DNA from: Brevibacterium jeotgali
Lineage (GTDB): Bacteria; Actinomycetota; Actinomycetes; Actinomycetales; Brevibacteriaceae
NCBI RefSeq assembly: GCF_900169175.1
Contig: NZ_FXZM01000004.1
Span: 124,001 to 188,000 of the forward strand
Direction: 5' to 3'
Length of the DNA: 64,000 nucleotides
Made by a program: the position numbers and the translations under genes. Within the stretch, counting starts at the first letter, position 1, and every line of letters starts with the position of its first letter. This document shows positions 1,097-62,884 of this stretch, in pieces. Under the pieces are notes generated by a model. The model was not told the DNA's origin. It saw only the letters and a list, made by a program, of their open reading frames with translations, and did not search any database.

Positions 1097-1167
1097 CCGG
1101 CGCCGGGAGCGCGCAATACACCCGCCCCCACCAGGCCCCAGACGCCGGTCCCCGCAATACCTACTAG

Positions 1168-1213
1168 CTTTCATCACACCGCATATGAAAGAAGTCGTGC
1201 GGTGTGATGAAAG
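1168..1213. repeat. Hairpin repeat, copy 1 of 4
   Basis: Perfect 16-bp arms (CTTTCATCACACCGCA and its complement) around the 14-base loop 1184-1197 (TATGAAAGAAGTCG). It lies between the convergent lyase and FAD oxidase genes, where a bidirectional terminator would be expected, but neither side has a T-run. The other copies are at 11968-12043, 16460-16505 and 59197-59254. Its right flank (GGTGGCTGG units, then TCTGGCAGGTCGATC near 1250-1265) resembles the right flank of copy 2, so the repeated unit may be longer than the hairpin. The rest of the 1097-1284 gap holds only short GGTGGCTGG-type repeats. Confidence 0.85.
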
Positions 1214-1284
1214 TTGGTGGCTGGTGGACGGTGGCTGGTGGCTGGTGTTCTGGCAGGTCGATCTGCACTGCACAGCCGCGCCGC

Positions 1285-10560: not shown

Positions 10561-11934
10561 ATGAGTCAGGGATACCGAGTGGAGGATCCGGCGACCGGCA
10601 CGGTCGTCGAGCAGTTCGACACGATCGCAGACGCACAGCTCGACACGGTGCTCGCGACAGCGGCCGAGGCGCAGACGGCGTGGGCCGCGAAGTCCATCGA
10701 AGAGCGGGCGGAGGTCATCCGTCGAGTCGCCGACCTGTTCGCGGAGCGGAAGGACAACCTCGCCGCGATCATCGGCCAGGAGATGGGCAAGCGCGTCACG
10801 GAGGGTGTCGAGGAGGCGGAGTTCGCCGGTGACATCTTCCGCTACTACGCGGACAACGCGGCGCGGTTCGCAGCGGACCAGCCGATCGAGACGGACGGCG
10901 GCGACGCGATGCTGCAGCGCCTGCCCGTCGGAGTCCTGCTGGGCATCATGCCGTGGAACTTCCCCTACTACCAGGTGGCGCGCTTCGCTGCACCGAACCT
11001 CATGCTGGGCAACGGGATCGTCCTCAAGCACGCGGAGATCTGCCCCCGATCGGCCGCGGCGATCCAGGACATCCTGGTGAGCGCCGGCGTGCCGGAGGGC
11101 CTCTACACGACCGTGTACGCGGACCACGAGCAGATCGCGGCCGCGATCGCCGATCCGCGGATCGCGGGCGTCTCCCTCACCGGTTCGGAGCGAGCCGGTG
11201 CGCAGGTCGCCGCGCAGGCGGGCAGGCACCTCAAGAAGGCCGTGCTGGAGCTGGGCGGTTCGGACCCCTACGTGGTACTCGACACCGATGACGTCGCCGA
11301 AGCCGCGCAGACTGCGTGGGCGACCCGCATGTACAACACCGGGCAGGCATGCAACTCGAACAAGCGCCTGATCGTCATGGACGACATCTACGACGACTTC
11401 GTCGCGGAGCTCACGAGGCTCGCGCAGGGGATGACACCGGGTGCGTGGGCTGATGAGGACGAGTCGGTGTATCAGCCGCTGTCCTCCCGGCCTGCGGCGG
11501 AGAAGCTCGTGGAGCAGCTGAAGCGCGCGCGGGACGCGGGTGCGGTGCTGCAGACGGGCGGCGAGCTGGCCGCGGACGGCGCGTACGTGTCACCGGCGGT
11601 GCTCACCGACGTGCCGGTCGGCTCGGAGATCTACTACGAGGAGCTGTTCGGCCCCGTCGCCACGGTCTTCCGGGTCTCCAGTGATGATGAGGCGCTGCGG
11701 CTGGCCAACGACTCCCAGTTCGGTCTGGGCGGTGCCGTGTTCTCCACGGACGAGGCCCGGGCCAAGCGCGTCGCATCCGGCCTGGAGGTCGGCATGGCGA
11801 ACGTCAACACGCCGGCGGGGGAGGGCGCGGAGCTGCCGTTCGGCGGTGTGAAGCGCTCCGGCTACGGCCGTGAGCTGGGGCCGGTCGGCATGGACGAGTT
11901 CGTCAACAAGCGCCTCTACTACGTGGAGGGGTGA
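10561..11934 (+). CDS. Aldehyde dehydrogenase, succinate-semialdehyde type
   Basis: 457 residues, the short form typical of succinate-semialdehyde dehydrogenases. MPWNFPYY (130-137) is the cofactor segment. Glu 230 in LELGGSDPY and Cys 264 in NTGQACNSNKR are the catalytic pair. It would oxidise succinate semialdehyde to succinate, feeding the TCA cycle. ATG 10561 follows AGGAGGG and lies 14 bases after the aminotransferase stop, so the two are one transcript. With the importer and the other dehydrogenase it completes a putrescine to GABA to succinate route. The family also contains other aldehyde specificities. Confidence 0.85.
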   Translation: MSQGYRVEDPATGTVVEQFDTIADAQLDTVLATAAEAQTAWAAKSIEERAEVIRRVADLFAERKDNLAAIIGQEMGKRVTEGVEEAEFAGDIFRYYADNAARFAADQPIETDGGDAMLQRLPVGVLLGIMPWNFPYYQVARFAAPNLMLGNGIVLKHAEICPRSAAAIQDILVSAGVPEGLYTTVYADHEQIAAAIADPRIAGVSLTGSERAGAQVAAQAGRHLKKAVLELGGSDPYVVLDTDDVAEAAQTAWATRMYNTGQACNSNKRLIVMDDIYDDFVAELTRLAQGMTPGAWADEDESVYQPLSSRPAAEKLVEQLKRARDAGAVLQTGGELAADGAYVSPAVLTDVPVGSEIYYEELFGPVATVFRVSSDDEALRLANDSQFGLGGAVFSTDEARAKRVASGLEVGMANVNTPAGEGAELPFGGVKRSGYGRELGPVGMDEFVNKRLYYVEG

Positions 11935-11967: not shown

Positions 11968-12043
11968 CACGCCAGCCACCAACTTTCATCACACCGCATA
12001 CGAAAGAAGTCGTGCGGTGTGATGAAAGTTGGTGGCTGGCGTG
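11968..12043. repeat. Hairpin repeat, copy 2 of 4 (longest arms)
   Basis: Perfect 31-bp arms (11968-11998 and 12013-12043) around a 14-base loop TACGAAAGAAGTCG. The arm core is the same CTTTCATCACACCGCA as copy 1, extended outward by CACGCCAGCCACCAA. It sits between the convergent dehydrogenase (+) and alkylation-repair (-) genes. After the right arm come GGCTGCTGG repeats and a TCTGGCGGGTCGATC block (about 12090-12104) that resembles the flank of copy 1. Confidence 0.9.
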
Positions 12044-16459: not shown

Positions 16460-16505
16460 CTTTCATCAGTCCGCACATGAAAGAACCTGTGCGGGCTGAT
16501 GAAAG
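16460..16505. repeat. Hairpin repeat, copy 3 of 4
   Basis: Arms CTTTCATCAGTCCGCAC and its near-complement (one G-T pair) with the same 14-base spacing, loop CATGAAAGAACCTG (16476-16489). Unlike the other copies it sits in a divergent region, between the YoaK-like gene and the molybdoenzyme gene, just upstream of the candidate SigK promoter. Relative to copy 1 the base pair at the third arm position is swapped (C-G to G-C), which keeps the helix. Confidence 0.85.
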
Positions 16506-20804: not shown

Positions 20805-20890
20805 CGGCGGAGCACCGCGGCTGATCGTCTGATCGTCCTGGCGGAACTCTGCTGTCCCATCGGCCGCGCCACAGCACTGCCCAGCAGGAA

Positions 20891-20951
20891 CGACCCGGGC
20901 GTCTGCTGCAGGATCAGGGGGTTCCCGATCCTGCAGCAGACGCCCGGGTCG
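20891..20951. terminator. Very long perfect hairpin between convergent genes
   Basis: 25-bp perfect arms (20891-20915 and 20927-20951, starting CGACCCGGGCGTCTGC) with an 11-base loop. It lies between the convergent rskA and MaoC-type genes and serves both sides as a terminator by position. Arm length and perfection exceed what termination needs. Confidence 0.75.
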
Positions 20952-20972
20952 TGTGCGACGGAGCCGGCGGTG

Positions 20973-44665: not shown

Positions 44666-46483
44666 ATGACCGACACCCCCATCGACCGCACCCGCGCCGT
44701 CGACGGGCCCGAAGCACCGGCCCACGACCTGACTGCCCCTCGCGATCAGTCTGCCTCTCGCGACCGGACGGCGATCCGGACTCCGACGCCCGTCGCGCTC
44801 GATCCCGAGGCGCTGAGCTTCGCGGACGTCGTCGCCGTCGCACGCCACGGCGCACGGGTCACGATCCCCACGGCCGTGCGGGACTCCGTCGCCGAGGTCC
44901 GGGCCGCGGTCGACGCCCTCGCCACCGCGGACCGCCCGGTCTACGGCGTCTCCACCGGGTTCGGCGCGCTCGCCCAGCGCCACATCCCCCACGACCTGCG
45001 CACGCGGCTGCAGAAGTCGCTCATCCGCTCGCATGCCGCCGGCGTCGGCACACCCGTCGAGCCCGAGGTCGTCCGCGCTCTCATGCTCCTGCGCGCCCGC
45101 ACCCTCGCGACCGGTCGCACCGGTGTGCGCACGGAGACGTTCGAGTCCTACGTCGCTCTGCTCAACGCGGGGATCACCCCCGTGGTCCACGAGTACGGGT
45201 CGCTGGGCTGCTCGGGGGACCTCGCGCCCCTGTCCGCCTGCGCGCTGGTCCTCATGGGTGAGGGGGAGGTCCACGGGCCGCTGGCCGACGACGGCACCCC
45301 CACTGCGCCGGTCCAGGCCGCTGAAGCTCTCGCCGAGGCCGGGATCGATCCCGTCGAACTGCGCGAGAAGGAGGGGCTCGCGCTGGTCAACGGCACCGAC
45401 GGGATGCTCGGCATGCTGATCCTCGCCCTGCATGACGTCGACGTCGTCCTCACGACGGTCGACGTCACCGCCGCCATGAGCGTCGAAGGTCTGCTCGGCA
45501 CGGACCGCGTCTTCCGACCGGATCTCCACCACCCGCTGCGCCCGCATCCGGGACAGGCGGAGGCCGCGGCGAACATGGTCACGACGCTCACGGGCTCCGG
45601 CATCGTCGCGAGCCACCGCGACTCGACGCACCTCGTCCAGGACGCGTATTCCCTGCGCTGCGCCCCGCAGGTCAACGGAGCGGCTCGTGACGCGGTCTCC
45701 TTCGCGGCGCAGACGGCCTCCCGCGAACTGCGCGCGGCGATCGACAACCCCGTCGTCCTGCCCGACGGCACGGTCTCCTCCAACGGGAACTTCCACGGCG
45801 CCCCGCTGGCCTACGCGCTGGATCTCCTGGCGATCGTGCTGGCCGACGTCGCCTCGATGGCGGAGCGCCGCACCGACCGCTTCATGGACACGTCCCGCAG
45901 CCAGGACCTGAACCCGTTCCTCGCGGACGACCCCGGCGTGGACTCCGGACTCATGATCGCCCACTACACGCAGGCCGGCGCCGTCTCGGAGATGAAGCGC
46001 CTCGCCGCGCCCGCCAGCGTCGACTCCATCCCCTCATCGGCGATGCAGGAGGATCACGTGTCCATGGGATGGGCCGCAGCCCGCAAGCTGCGTCGCTCCG
46101 TCGACGCGTTCGCGAACGTGGTGGGGATCGAGCTGTACGCGGCCTCCCGCGGAGTGGAGCTGCGCGAGGCCGCGCCGTCGCCCGTCTCCTCTGCTGTGCT
46201 CGAGTGCCTGCGGCCTGAGGTCCCCGGCCCGGGCCCGGATCGCTTCCTCAGTCCGGAGCTCGAGGCGACGATCGCGCTGGTCCGGTCCGGTGAGGTCCTC
46301 GCCGCCGCAGACTCCGCCGCCCACCTCGTGCGCGTGCTCCCCGAGTTCGCGGCGTCAGAACCCGCCGAACCCGATGAGCGTGCCGACCCGGCCGACCCGG
46401 CCGACCCGGCCGACCCGGCCGACCCGGCCGACCCGGCCGACCCCGCCGACCCCGCCGCTGCCGGGGCCCCGACCGCTCTCTGA
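44666..46483 (+). CDS. hutH: Histidine ammonia-lyase with CSG motif and repeat tail
   Basis: 605 residues against about 510 normally, with extra head (about 50) and tail (about 45). It deaminates histidine to urocanate. The MIO cofactor region reads GSLGCSGDLAPLSA, where Cys 182-Ser-Gly replaces the Ala-Ser-Gly usually quoted. Other signatures fit: YGVSTGFGALA, LVQDAYSLRCAPQ and NGNFHGAPLAYALD. The tail encodes (DPA)8 from a 9-base repeat. AAGGAGGCCCC precedes ATG 44666; 158 bases separate it from hutI with no clear promoter. First hut enzyme, but second gene in the operon. Confidence 0.9.
   Translation: MTDTPIDRTRAVDGPEAPAHDLTAPRDQSASRDRTAIRTPTPVALDPEALSFADVVAVARHGARVTIPTAVRDSVAEVRAAVDALATADRPVYGVSTGFGALAQRHIPHDLRTRLQKSLIRSHAAGVGTPVEPEVVRALMLLRARTLATGRTGVRTETFESYVALLNAGITPVVHEYGSLGCSGDLAPLSACALVLMGEGEVHGPLADDGTPTAPVQAAEALAEAGIDPVELREKEGLALVNGTDGMLGMLILALHDVDVVLTTVDVTAAMSVEGLLGTDRVFRPDLHHPLRPHPGQAEAAANMVTTLTGSGIVASHRDSTHLVQDAYSLRCAPQVNGAARDAVSFAAQTASRELRAAIDNPVVLPDGTVSSNGNFHGAPLAYALDLLAIVLADVASMAERRTDRFMDTSRSQDLNPFLADDPGVDSGLMIAHYTQAGAVSEMKRLAAPASVDSIPSSAMQEDHVSMGWAAARKLRRSVDAFANVVGIELYAASRGVELREAAPSPVSSAVLECLRPEVPGPGPDRFLSPELEATIALVRSGEVLAAADSAAHLVRVLPEFAASEPAEPDERADPADPADPADPADPADPADPADPAAAGAPTAL
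46382..46453 (+). repeat. 9-bp tandem repeat in the hutH tail
   Basis: Eight units of GCCGACCCG (six perfect, the last two ending C) encode a run of Ala-Asp-Pro at the C-terminus. Unit changes keep the frame. Confidence 0.95.
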
Positions 46484-46579: not shown

Positions 46580-47848
46580 ATGACGGACGTCGTCTCCCTG
46601 CTGGCACAGATCAAGGACACCGGCCGAGACCCGCGAGGTTCCGGCTACCTGCGCCCCGGCTTCAGTCGCGTGGAGCGCGATCTGCGCGCATGGTTCGTCG
46701 CGGAAGCGGAGGCCCGCGGCCTCGACGTGGAGGTCGACCACAACGGCATCACGTGGGCGTGGGCGACGCCGCCGGGCGAGAACGCGGTCGTGACCGGTTC
46801 CCACCTGGACTCGGTGCCCGGGGGCGGTGAGTTCGACGGACCGCTGGGTGTGGCCTCGGCGCTTGCTGCCGTCGACGAGCTCACAGAGTCGGGACGGCTC
46901 GCACGCGCGGGCAGACCGCTGGCGATCGCGGTGTTCCCGGAGGAGGAGGGATCCCGGTTCGGCCTCTCCTGCCTGGGGTCGCGCCTGCTCACGGGGGCTG
47001 TGGGGCCGAAGCGAGCGCTCGCGATGACCGACGATCGCGGGGACACGTTCGCAGAGGTCCTCACCCGCCACGGCCTGGATCCCGAGCGGGTCGGCAGAGA
47101 CGACGAGCGATTGAGCCGCATCGGCTCGTTCCTCGAACTGCACGTCGAGCAGGGCGTGGGGCTGATCAACACGGATCAGCCGGTCGCGGTGGGATCGTCG
47201 ATCCTCGGGCACGGCCGCTGGCACGTCCGCTTCGAGGGGCAGGGCAATCACGCGGGCACGACCCCCATGGCACGCCGAGCGGACCCGGTCGTCGCTGCGG
47301 CACGCACCATCGGAGACATCCCGACGATCGTCAGCCGCTTCGACGGGGCGGTGGCCACGGTCGGCCGCACGCGGGTGCACCCGGGCGGGACGAACGTCAT
47401 CGCCTCCGCCATGGACGTGTGGCTGGACATTCGTCACCCCGACGACGAGGTCGTCCAGGAGGTCCTCGAGGAGATCGCGGCGCGGGCCCGCGACCGAGCC
47501 TCCGGCGCCGGATACCGGAACCAGGAGGTCACGCTCACCGTCGACCAGGAGTCGTACTCGCCGACGACCCACTTCCACGCAGACTTCACCCGGCGGCTGT
47601 CCGCGCTCCTGCCGGAGGCTCCGGCGCAGTCGACGGGAGCCGGCCACGACGCGGCCATCCTCGCCGCGCACGTGCCGTCCGCCATGCTGTTCGTCCGCAA
47701 CCCCACCGGTGTGTCCCATGCGGCGGAGGAGGCCTGCGAGGACGACGACGCCCGCGCAGGCGTGCGCAGGCTCGCCGACGCGCTCGCGATGGAACTGGGA
47801 GTGGAGGAATCGGCGACCGGAGATCCGGGAGCGGAGGACCGGCCGTGA
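46580..47848 (+). CDS. M20/allantoate-amidohydrolase family enzyme, candidate formylglutamate deformylase
   Basis: 422 residues, Zn peptidase M20 family (allantoate amidohydrolase/N-carbamoyl-amino-acid hydrolase group). Ligands and catalytic residues: GSHLDSVPGGGEFDGPLG (His, Asp), FPEEEGSRFG (Glu pair), LELHVEQG, GNHAGTTPM and a late His in GVSHAAEEA. GGAGGAGG precedes the ATG. No hutG-type deformylase is seen in the window, and HutF (overlapping next gene) makes N-formylglutamate, so this enzyme most likely releases formate from it. That function is inferred from neighbours, not proven by a diagnostic motif. Confidence 0.75.
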   Translation: MTDVVSLLAQIKDTGRDPRGSGYLRPGFSRVERDLRAWFVAEAEARGLDVEVDHNGITWAWATPPGENAVVTGSHLDSVPGGGEFDGPLGVASALAAVDELTESGRLARAGRPLAIAVFPEEEGSRFGLSCLGSRLLTGAVGPKRALAMTDDRGDTFAEVLTRHGLDPERVGRDDERLSRIGSFLELHVEQGVGLINTDQPVAVGSSILGHGRWHVRFEGQGNHAGTTPMARRADPVVAAARTIGDIPTIVSRFDGAVATVGRTRVHPGGTNVIASAMDVWLDIRHPDDEVVQEVLEEIAARARDRASGAGYRNQEVTLTVDQESYSPTTHFHADFTRRLSALLPEAPAQSTGAGHDAAILAAHVPSAMLFVRNPTGVSHAAEEACEDDDARAGVRRLADALAMELGVEESATGDPGAEDRP

Positions 47849-49527
47849 CGTCGGCACGGCCTGCGACCTCGGCGACGGGGGAGGCCGCGGTGCCGGCCGG
47901 GGTCTCGGACCCAGCCGGAGACTCGGACCCAGCCGGAGACTCGGTGGCGGCCGGGGCCGCGAACTTCTGGTGCGAGCGCGCCTGGGTGGACGGCGCCGTC
48001 CGTGACGGTGTGCTGCTGCGAACAGACGAGGCGGGCGTCCTCTCCGAGGTGCGGGTCGGGGTCACCGCCGCCGAGGTCGCAGCCGAGTCTCCGGACCGAG
48101 CCGCTCCCGATGGGAGGACAGGTGCGCCCGCAGCCGCAGCCGCGCCCGCGCCCCTCCAGCACCTGTCCGGGATCGCGTTCCCCGGTGGGGTGAACGCGCA
48201 CTCCCACGCGTTCCACCGGATGCTGCGGGGGCGCACCCACGCAGACGGGGGAACCTTCTGGACGTGGCGCGAGGTCATGTACGACGTGGCGCGGCGACTC
48301 ACCCCGGAGTCATATCGAGTGGTGGCGCGGGCCGTGTTCGCGGAGATGCTCGCGGGCGGGTGGACCAGTGTGGGCGAGTTCCACTACGTCCATCACGCAC
48401 CTGACGGCGAGCCGTACGGGCACGCGGATGGAATCGCAGGGGAAGCGGAGGCGGACCGCGCGGCGGACACAGCGGAAGCGGGAGTCGCTCCGCCTGCGGG
48501 TGCACACGCGATGGAGCTGGCGCTCGCGGCTGCGGCAGAGGACGTCGGCATCCGCCTGCGCCTCCTCGACACCTGCTATCTCACCGGGACGATCGGGGAG
48601 GAGCTGTCGGAGGAGCAGGCGCGGTTCGGCGACGGCGACATCGAGGGCTACCTCCGCAGGCACGCAGCCCTCGCCCGCATGCTCGCGGCGCGCTCCTCCT
48701 CCGCGCGAGGGACGGGGTGCTGGTCCGACGGACGGGCGACTGCGGGTGTCCCTCGGACCAGCACCCCGTCCCTCGCGGGCGAGGGTGCGCGGCTCGTCAC
48801 GCTGGGGGCCGCGATCCACTCCGTGCGAGCCGTTCCCGCGGCGGACATCGCCCGCTTCCACGAACTCGACGGGCCCGTCCACATCCACCTGTCCGAGCAG
48901 CCCGCGGAGAACGAGACCTGCCTCGCGGCCCACGGCCGCACGCCCACCGGGGTGCTCGAAGGCGCCGGCGTCCTGGGCCCCGCCCTGTCGCCCGTGCACG
49001 CCACACACCTGACGGACGAGGACATCGCGGCGCTGGGTGCAGCGGGCACGACGATCGTCATGTGCCCCACCACGGAGGCGGACCTGGCGGACGGGATCGG
49101 CCCGGCGCTCGACCTCGCGCACGCGGGAGCGACGATCGCCCTGGGCTCCGACCAGCATGTGGTGCTCGACGCTCTGCGGGAGCTGCAGGGACTCGAAGCG
49201 GGAGCACGGCTGCGCTCCGGGCAGCGCGGACGCTTCGCCCCAGCCCAGCTGGTCGACGCGATGACGACGGGAGGCGCACGCAGCCTGGATCTGCCAGCAG
49301 GGTCGTTCGAGGTGGGCCGCGTGTGCGACCTCTTCGCGGTGGACCCTGCGAGCCCTCGGACGTGCGGGTCGGTGGCGGAGCAGGTGGTGCTGGCGGGGAC
49401 CGCGGCGGACGTGCACACCGTCGTCACCGCCGGGCGGGTGCGGGTGCGCGATGGCCGGCACACGACGCTGGGCGGCATCGGCGCGCTCTACCGCGACGCA
49501 TACGCCGCACTGGGGCTGGATACATGA
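47845..49527 (+). CDS. hutF: Formimidoylglutamate deiminase with in-frame palindrome insertion
   Basis: 560 residues, about 100 longer than typical HutF. Amidohydrolase ligands: HxH in VNAHSHAFHR, His in HIHLSEQPAE, His in PVHATHLT and Asp in LGSDQHVV. It converts N-formimidoylglutamate to N-formylglutamate and ammonia. GTG 47845 overlaps the upstream stop as GTGA, with GGAGGACC before it. The extra length is an Ala/Gly/Asp-rich head plus an insert at about residues 284-316, after ALARMLAARS and before the conserved LGAAIHSVRAVP, where a 74-bp palindrome (48704-48777) is translated in frame. Reading frame is intact. Confidence 0.9.
   Translation: MTSARPATSATGEAAVPAGVSDPAGDSDPAGDSVAAGAANFWCERAWVDGAVRDGVLLRTDEAGVLSEVRVGVTAAEVAAESPDRAAPDGRTGAPAAAAAPAPLQHLSGIAFPGGVNAHSHAFHRMLRGRTHADGGTFWTWREVMYDVARRLTPESYRVVARAVFAEMLAGGWTSVGEFHYVHHAPDGEPYGHADGIAGEAEADRAADTAEAGVAPPAGAHAMELALAAAAEDVGIRLRLLDTCYLTGTIGEELSEEQARFGDGDIEGYLRRHAALARMLAARSSSARGTGCWSDGRATAGVPRTSTPSLAGEGARLVTLGAAIHSVRAVPAADIARFHELDGPVHIHLSEQPAENETCLAAHGRTPTGVLEGAGVLGPALSPVHATHLTDEDIAALGAAGTTIVMCPTTEADLADGIGPALDLAHAGATIALGSDQHVVLDALRELQGLEAGARLRSGQRGRFAPAQLVDAMTTGGARSLDLPAGSFEVGRVCDLFAVDPASPRTCGSVAEQVVLAGTAADVHTVVTAGRVRVRDGRHTTLGGIGALYRDAYAALGLDT
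48704..48777. repeat. 74-bp palindromic element inside hutF
   Basis: 25-bp perfect arms (48704-48728 and 48753-48777; left arm starts CGCGAGGGACGGGGTGC and ends TGGTCCGA) with a 24-base loop. No second copy was noticed in the window. It lies in a variable spot of the protein between conserved blocks. Confidence 0.9.
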
Positions 49528-59196: not shown

Positions 59197-59254
59197 CACC
59201 GACTTTCATCAGACCGCACACGTTCTTTCATATGCGGTCTGATGAAAGTTGGTG
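59197..59254. repeat. Hairpin repeat, copy 4 of 4 (inverted)
   Basis: Arms of 22 bp with one G-T pair (59197-59218, 59233-59254; core ACTTTCATCAGACCGCA) around the 14-base loop CACGTTCTTTCATA. Read from the minus strand the loop is TATGAAAGAACGTG, so this copy is inverted relative to the other three. It lies between the convergent racemase and permease genes. Confidence 0.9.
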
Positions 59255-62684: not shown

Positions 62685-62817
62685 GGGGGCCTCCTCGGAT
62701 CTGGGTCGGGCGTGCCGACGCGAACGTCGACCGGCACCTCCATGCTGACATGACGCCTTGCCTTCCGACAGTGCCGCCGGCTGAATCCGGTGCGCCGCGC
62801 GAGTGTGCCGCACGCAG

Positions 62818-62871
62818 ATGGATCGGTGCCCCCGTCCGCTCCGAGTGGAGTGGACGGGGGCACCGATCCAT
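62818..62871. terminator. Strong terminator upstream of the acidic gene
   Basis: 20-bp perfect arms (62818-62837, 62852-62871; ATGGATCGGTGCCCCCGTCC), lengthened inside by CTCC/GGAG. It follows the end of the small minus-strand gene at 62885. The remaining 62685-62817 gap shows nothing else. Confidence 0.75.
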
Positions 62872-62884
62872 TATCGCGAGGCGC

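Follow-up and report, generated by a model that had tools for sequence, protein, structure and literature searches.

The hutF gene of Brevibacterium jeotgali carries a 74-bp palindrome in frame within its coding sequence, in a stretch of 64,000 nucleotides (positions 124,001 to 188,000 of contig NZ_FXZM01000004.1, hereafter the window). The palindrome belongs to a dispersed family, here called family 1, and two of its 18 copies stand on either side of a gene, located outside the window, whose product is a predicted AbiEi-Vsr-like nuclease. Bracketing of this kind is repeated elsewhere in Brevibacterium and in further genera of its order; the two flanks of one gene are alike, and the palindromes of paralogues in one genome are unlike. 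The arms contain motif units, and at a fixed site the two arms change together. The nuclease likely recognises the repeated motif and drives the spread and homogenisation of the palindrome, in the manner of repetitive extragenic palindromes (REPs) and REP-associated tyrosine transposases (RAYTs), an account that we consider somewhat more probable than not. The arrangement is best read as a REP/RAYT-like partnership with an unrelated enzyme.

The palindrome in hutF and its family

The hutF product is recognised by the NCBIfam model for formimidoylglutamate deiminase (E 3e-144), and its reading frame is open across the element, which sits between ALARMLAARSSS and GEGARLVTLGAAIHSVRAVP of the protein. 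The arms are complementary without mismatch over 25 bp and are separated by 24 bases; both this architecture and the in-frame location had been described in the initial annotation and are borne out. Pairing continues into the loop, a repeat finder lengthens the arms to 30 nt (97% match, 14-nt loop), and 31 of 37 positions are paired over the full 74 bp. The RNA fold of the 101-nt element region reaches -85.8 kcal/mol (z -8.5), a value equalled by 0 of 200 shuffles. The element's own share of HutF is 25-26 residues; because 74 is not divisible by 3, retention of the frame also needs flanking bases, and residues 247-288 of the searched translation replace about nine residues (191-199) of the solved N-formimino-L-glutamate iminohydrolase 3mdu. 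Protein selection does not explain the arms, as had been argued from the sequence. In a 398-kb portion of the own genome, 10 palindromes reach the scoring cut-off, a single one of which belongs to the family, against none in 400 kb of order-2 Markov sequence. The search of Rfam returned only microRNA precursors under the gathering score, which were dismissed as chance matches of a long hairpin.

The genome search that had been proposed for the arm sequence reveals a dispersed element: a covariance model places family 1 at 18 positions of the 3.3-Mb genome (E <= 1e-3), most of which BLAST also recovered, a count that leaves out a match at C37:76026 (46 nt, E 0.026). Fifteen copies align over 74 columns with zero gaps, and the length of 74 rests on this alignment, since an arm of 37 was imposed when 66 copies from six genomes were centred (3 of the 66 fitted an odd centre). 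The consensus arm consists of two copies of a unit, CGAGGGACGGG in columns 3-13 and CGAnGGACGGG in columns 23-33, so that the whole palindrome holds a pair of units on each strand, four in all. Sequence between the units varies among copies and tends to pair within each copy. Both sides are changed in 16 of the 34 column pairs, against 10.5 in shuffles and no more than 10 in slid controls, and the covariation score is 0.195 (0.112 in shuffles, at most 0.094 in slid controls).

When one genome per species was scanned with a strict pattern, in a set that may leave out the window's own genome, only records of B. senegalense (G015), Ca. B. intestinigallinarum (G017) and B. yomogidense (G002) were identified, and the model matches at E <= 1e-3 in 14 of 57 Brevibacterium genomes, the own genome included. 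Some Brevibacterium genomes possess a 72-bp cousin palindrome with the unit CGAGAAACGGG. The idea of a single motif per genome was rejected, as several subtypes stand side by side in G015, G017 and G030.

With genes called by codon usage rather than taken from annotation, the neighbours of the 18 own copies are convergent in 11 cases, tandem in 3 and divergent in 1, and the other 3 copies sit within genes. Convergent neighbours are in excess among the intergenic copies, at 11 of 15, when compared with the 33 gene gaps in the window, of which 8 are convergent (p 0.003). Pooling six genomes gives 33 of 54, a count whose copies are not independent, since it includes shared sites. The three in-gene copies are all found in linkers with open frames: in hutF, in a MoeZ-like gene between the ThiF and rhodanese domains (likewise in genome G031), and in a ModB-ModC fusion between the permease and ATPase parts. 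In G031, a further copy lies ahead of the molybdopterin domain of a sulfite-oxidase-like protein. The element is read in an identical phase in 6 of 7 in-gene copies, the ModBC copy being the exception.

A nuclease-like gene between palindromes

On contig C7 of the same genome, the gene at 10720-11685 is bracketed by two family 1 copies. In its predicted structure, the product consists of an AbiEi-like part (residues 1-210) joined to a nuclease domain that resembles those of Vsr and I-Bth0305I (residues 214-321), and fold comparisons with this model place the N-terminal part with AbiEi and the C-terminal part with Vsr. E218, D251 and E262 are invariant across 33 aligned proteins. The protein is hit by the AbiEi profiles in a defence library at a best E of 2.2e-10, and the name very-short-patch-repair endonuclease is attached to three of 49 relatives in the database. 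A literature search over titles and abstract openings, with few subscription papers covered, turned up no paper on a role for such proteins and, among the titles listed, none that links palindromes to them.

Homologues of the bracketed gene are present in 51 of 57 Brevibacterium genomes, with up to 8 per genome at E <= 1e-20. In 50 neighbourhoods (the best-match loci of 30 genomes plus the next 20 rows), a long palindrome adjoins the gene in 39 and stands on both sides in 20; none was found within the gene, 3 were found elsewhere in the loci, and 0 in shuffled loci. Five rows that had already been examined were skipped from this set, one of them two-sided, three one-sided and one without palindromes. 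Among six Brevibacterium loci beyond the 50, L317 is two-sided, L316 and L318 have one palindrome downstream, L319 has one 521 nt downstream, and L337 and L338 have weak or distant palindromes only. In G011, G020, G033 and G066, which have the 72-bp cousin, a model match starts 4 nt past the point where the protein match to such a gene stops.

The palindromes to the left and right of one gene have a mean identity of 0.81, against 0.40 between loci, and those of paralogues within one genome are dissimilar in 11 of 11 pairs (0.31-0.44). A direct repeat at 18-20 nt within the arm is seen in 26 of the 118 arms of the Brevibacterium set versus 1.3% of shuffled arms. Across the order, a homologue is found at E <= 1e-15 in 22 of 119 genomes. 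Seventeen loci from other genera, drawn from 20 rows and scored without a shuffle control, comprise 10 two-sided, 5 one-sided and 2 without palindromes; the two sides match each other in 8 of the 10, and repeated units are visible by eye in several of these palindromes.

A second type of palindrome (CTTTCATCA type, family 2) is associated with a distant relative of the C7 gene. This AbiEi/DUF559-like gene on contig C36, with 35% identity, is flanked on both sides by family 2 (L342 3404-3459 and 4950-5005), as is its counterpart in G002. Family 2 occupies 10 places in the own genome at E <= 1e-3, plus the palindrome at 16460 and one more beside the C36 gene; G002 has 11 places, and G031 and G030 have none at E <= 1e-3.

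Other enclosed genes occur as well. In G015 (L132 5721-5794 and 6495-6568) and G017 (L143 5826 and 6600), an acetyltransferase-like gene, whose identity was read by eye from its translation, lies between two similar palindromes that are nearly identical in G015, as if genes other than nuclease-like ones can perhaps be enclosed as well. In the own genome, two genes are enclosed by two palindromes at L104 4356-6390; they are missing from that place in G002, whose junction is occupied by a palindrome of another type.

Change at shared sites and other palindromes

Among 29 hutF loci compared, the insert was found in the own genome and in G031, and most others have a clearly shorter linker, as had been anticipated; the hutF genes of L032 and L033 have long Gly/Ala/Ser-rich linkers in place of the element. 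The site is also occupied in G002, where the 74-bp element has less perfect arms and is accompanied by an extra insert, and the G031 element has different arm sequences that are again paired. A recent lone insertion into hutF is ruled out, since the same site is filled in both genomes and the G031 arms differ and are nonetheless paired. Conservation of the insert as protein, with scattered synonymous changes in the arms, had been named as the outcome that would speak against a palindromic element, and it is not the pattern observed. The extra insert of G002 (L115 about 1924-1997, behind the 74-bp element) pairs at 22 of 37 positions and is possibly a decayed palindrome; given its position, the hutF linker may be a recurrent target.

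At seven sites shared between species, with one comparison per site and the mis-centred G015 row of the L149 site left out, the pair is kept in 46 of 62 columns that are altered in both arms, where one third would be expected without constraint. Single-site p values for the co-occurrence of arm changes range from 0.0004 to 0.24 for the seven comparisons and from 0.0001 to 1 across all pairs. At one shared site, G000 and G002 carry the element with its interior in opposite orientations between identically oriented flanks: the central 22 nt show 8 mismatches when read the same way and 1 when inverted. Template switching during replication is reported to even out arms and to invert spacers (PMC8604942).

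The G031 arms at the hutF and L101 sites have identities of 0.80-0.92 to the copies on either side of that genome's nuclease gene, against 0.66 (hutF) and 0.54 (L101) to the G000 copies at the same sites; being nearer to the copies of their own nuclease gene, arms tend to follow the genome and not the site. At the G031 counterpart of the C7 gene site, no solo palindrome was found at the cut-off. Sites without the element are known from G002 (L102 and L106) and G031 (L111). One site of G030 apparently retains the first 13 nt of the element and the modBC linker of G002 apparently retains part of an arm, a deletion-like pattern.

Table 1. Palindromes, motif units and host gene in the window (window coordinates)
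Feature	Position	Strand	Remarks
Family 1 palindromic element, 74 bp, in frame in hutF	48704..48777		18 places in own genome, 15-copy gap-free alignment
Left perfect arm, 25 bp	48704..48728		
Right perfect arm, 25 bp	48753..48777		
Outer motif unit CGAGGGACGGG, left arm	48706..48716	+	alignment columns 3-13
Inner motif unit CGACGGACGGG, left arm	48726..48736	+	20 nt past outer unit; columns 23-33
Inner motif unit CGAGGGACACC, right arm	48745..48755	-	columns 42-52
Outer motif unit CGAGGGACGGG, right arm	48765..48775	-	columns 62-72
hutF, formimidoylglutamate deiminase, element in linker	47944..49527	+	start codon predicted
Family 2 palindrome (CTTTCATCA type)	1163..1218		
Family 2 palindrome	11968..12043		31-bp perfect arms
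Family 2 palindrome	16460..16505		
Family 2 palindrome	59197..59254		

Two further long palindromes of the window, at 62807-62882 and 20890-20952, lack the family sequence and are perhaps ordinary bidirectional terminators. Tandem GACCCGGCC-like repeats at 46382-46458 lie upstream of the frame 46580-47848.

Proposed mechanism and alternatives

For the nuclease and its palindrome, we infer binding, cutting and mobility as follows. The AbiEi-like part would bind the motif units, for which AbiEi and Rv2827c provide a precedent, and the nuclease domain, judged by its fold and conserved residues, would nick or cut at the palindrome. Repair from another copy or from the opposite arm would then copy the palindrome and even it out, and new copies would survive chiefly behind gene ends or within protein linkers. 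The hutF element would be a passenger of long standing, and its open frame and linker position would explain why it is tolerated.

Several observations weigh against this account. Palindromes that occupy shared sites are old, and no example of a precise insertion came to light (the empty sites are diverged or deletion-like). A target-site duplication, the mark of a MITE of a classical transposon, does not stand out at the 18 own copies, whose longest flanking repeats (0-3 nt) do not exceed those at random places. With no insertion caught and no visible target duplication, the data fit slow turnover, by repair and homogenisation, better than they fit frequent jumping. Template switching can even out arms and invert spacers without a nuclease, and homogenisation is not seen in the central 24 nt at hutF (0.75 and 0.79 against 0.75). 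Pfam supports the domain assignment weakly: DUF559 matches the C7 protein below the cut-off (E 0.095), and among the 33 relatives DUF559 is found in 11 and AbiEi_4 in 2. The downstream copy of the C7 gene pairs at only 24 of 37 positions, and this gene was therefore scored as one-sided in the 50-locus survey; in G002 the family 1 copies are unlike in type to the palindromes that bracket its C11 gene. Finally, 11 of the 50 genes have no palindrome at the cut-off, five of them with left and right flanks that share sequence at a score above 40 (between-locus 95% value 25.8, maximum 52).

The palindromes could instead be binding sites of an AbiEi-like regulator, kept paired by template switching and selection on the sites, with neither mobility nor cutting in vivo. 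This is rather unlikely. In its favour, AbiEi and Rv2827c are each reported to bind inverted repeats of 23 bp within the promoter of their own gene (PMC7319586), residues 1-210 of the C7 model resemble AbiEi, and the interior inverted between G000 and G002 is of the kind attributed to template switching. An operator, however, needs no downstream copy and none in the hutF, moeZ and modBC linkers; the conserved nuclease-like domain would be left unexplained, and a plain operator would not be expected to occur in 18 copies or to have species-specific arms at sites that species share. A role as bidirectional terminators behind convergent genes, with the hutF copy as a stray, would account for the convergent excess and the very stable stem, but it is quite improbable, as a T-run of at least 4 within 12 nt is found at 0 of 18 own copies, the other long palindromes in the 398 kb are unlike in length and sequence, and the bracketing of one gene family both upstream and downstream would have no explanation.

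A defence system is suggested by the AbiEi profiles of the defence library, with the nuclease directed against foreign DNA as it enters and the palindromes acting as marks or shields for the host; however, a self-mark would be sparse with 18 copies in 3.3 Mb and copies in coding linkers would be useless as a shield, and we regard it as very improbable. Least credible is a selfish palindrome without a partner, similar to Rickettsia palindromic elements: in-frame linker copies in three own genes and in a further kind of gene in G031 are in keeping with it, but the same genome has a gene bracketed by the same palindrome, and such bracketing recurs in genus and order. The likeness to Rickettsia palindromic elements drawn in the initial annotation stands for behaviour only, as these are palindromes read in frame within host genes according to PMC10969869 and 3 of the 18 copies are so placed here; its picture lacked the bracketed predicted nuclease gene outside the window. 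The Rickettsia elements are about 150 bp rather than 74 bp; the present family has a gene that it brackets, 15 of its 18 copies are intergenic and its host is Brevibacterium.

Among known systems, the proposed nuclease-palindrome partnership resembles in layout the REPtrons, the pairs of REP/REPIN and TnpAREP/RAYT, and it may work like a REPtron without being one. REPtrons are described as having dispersed, mostly intergenic palindromes, a cognate gene beside its own type and different pairs per genome (PMC3116915, PMC8266576), and a gene flanked by its own palindrome type, itself dispersed elsewhere, is also found here. A RAYT/IS200 partner was sought and rejected, with Y1_Tnp PF01797 detected in 0 of 11 genomes and in 5 of 14 control genomes. 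The enzyme of REPtrons is a Y1 (HUH) transposase, unlike the AbiEi-Vsr-like partner predicted here; the present palindrome is 74 bp long with four motif units, and the GTAG/CGTC tag is not above chance (within 12 nt of 2 of the 18 own copies, chance 22%). About six hundred REPs are reported for E. coli K12 (PMC8266576), compared with 18 copies here. The AbiE type IV toxin-antitoxin system shares the modelled fold of residues 1-210 with its antitoxin AbiEi, which binds inverted repeats in the cited report, but here a nuclease-like domain is added and palindromes stand on both sides of the gene and are dispersed. In contrast to Vsr and the homing endonuclease I-Bth0305I, the nuclease-like domain is joined to an AbiEi-like part in a gene bracketed by its own palindromes. 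IS200/IS605 elements are reported to place a gene between two palindromic ends (PMC8266576); their enzyme fold is different, and no insertion footprint is seen here.

The wider proposal, on which we are evenly divided, is that of a new class of actinobacterial mobile DNA in which an AbiEi-type DNA reader, joined to a homing-type nuclease, mobilises and homogenises palindromes of four motifs, with a palindrome code specific to each nuclease lineage and with in-frame palindromes repeatedly supplying linkers to proteins. The gene-specific palindrome on both sides provides a testable DNA substrate for each relative. If the proposal is true, REP-like partnerships arose repeatedly with unrelated enzymes, which could account for the dispersed palindromes of genomes that lack RAYT genes, among them copies now forming parts of proteins.
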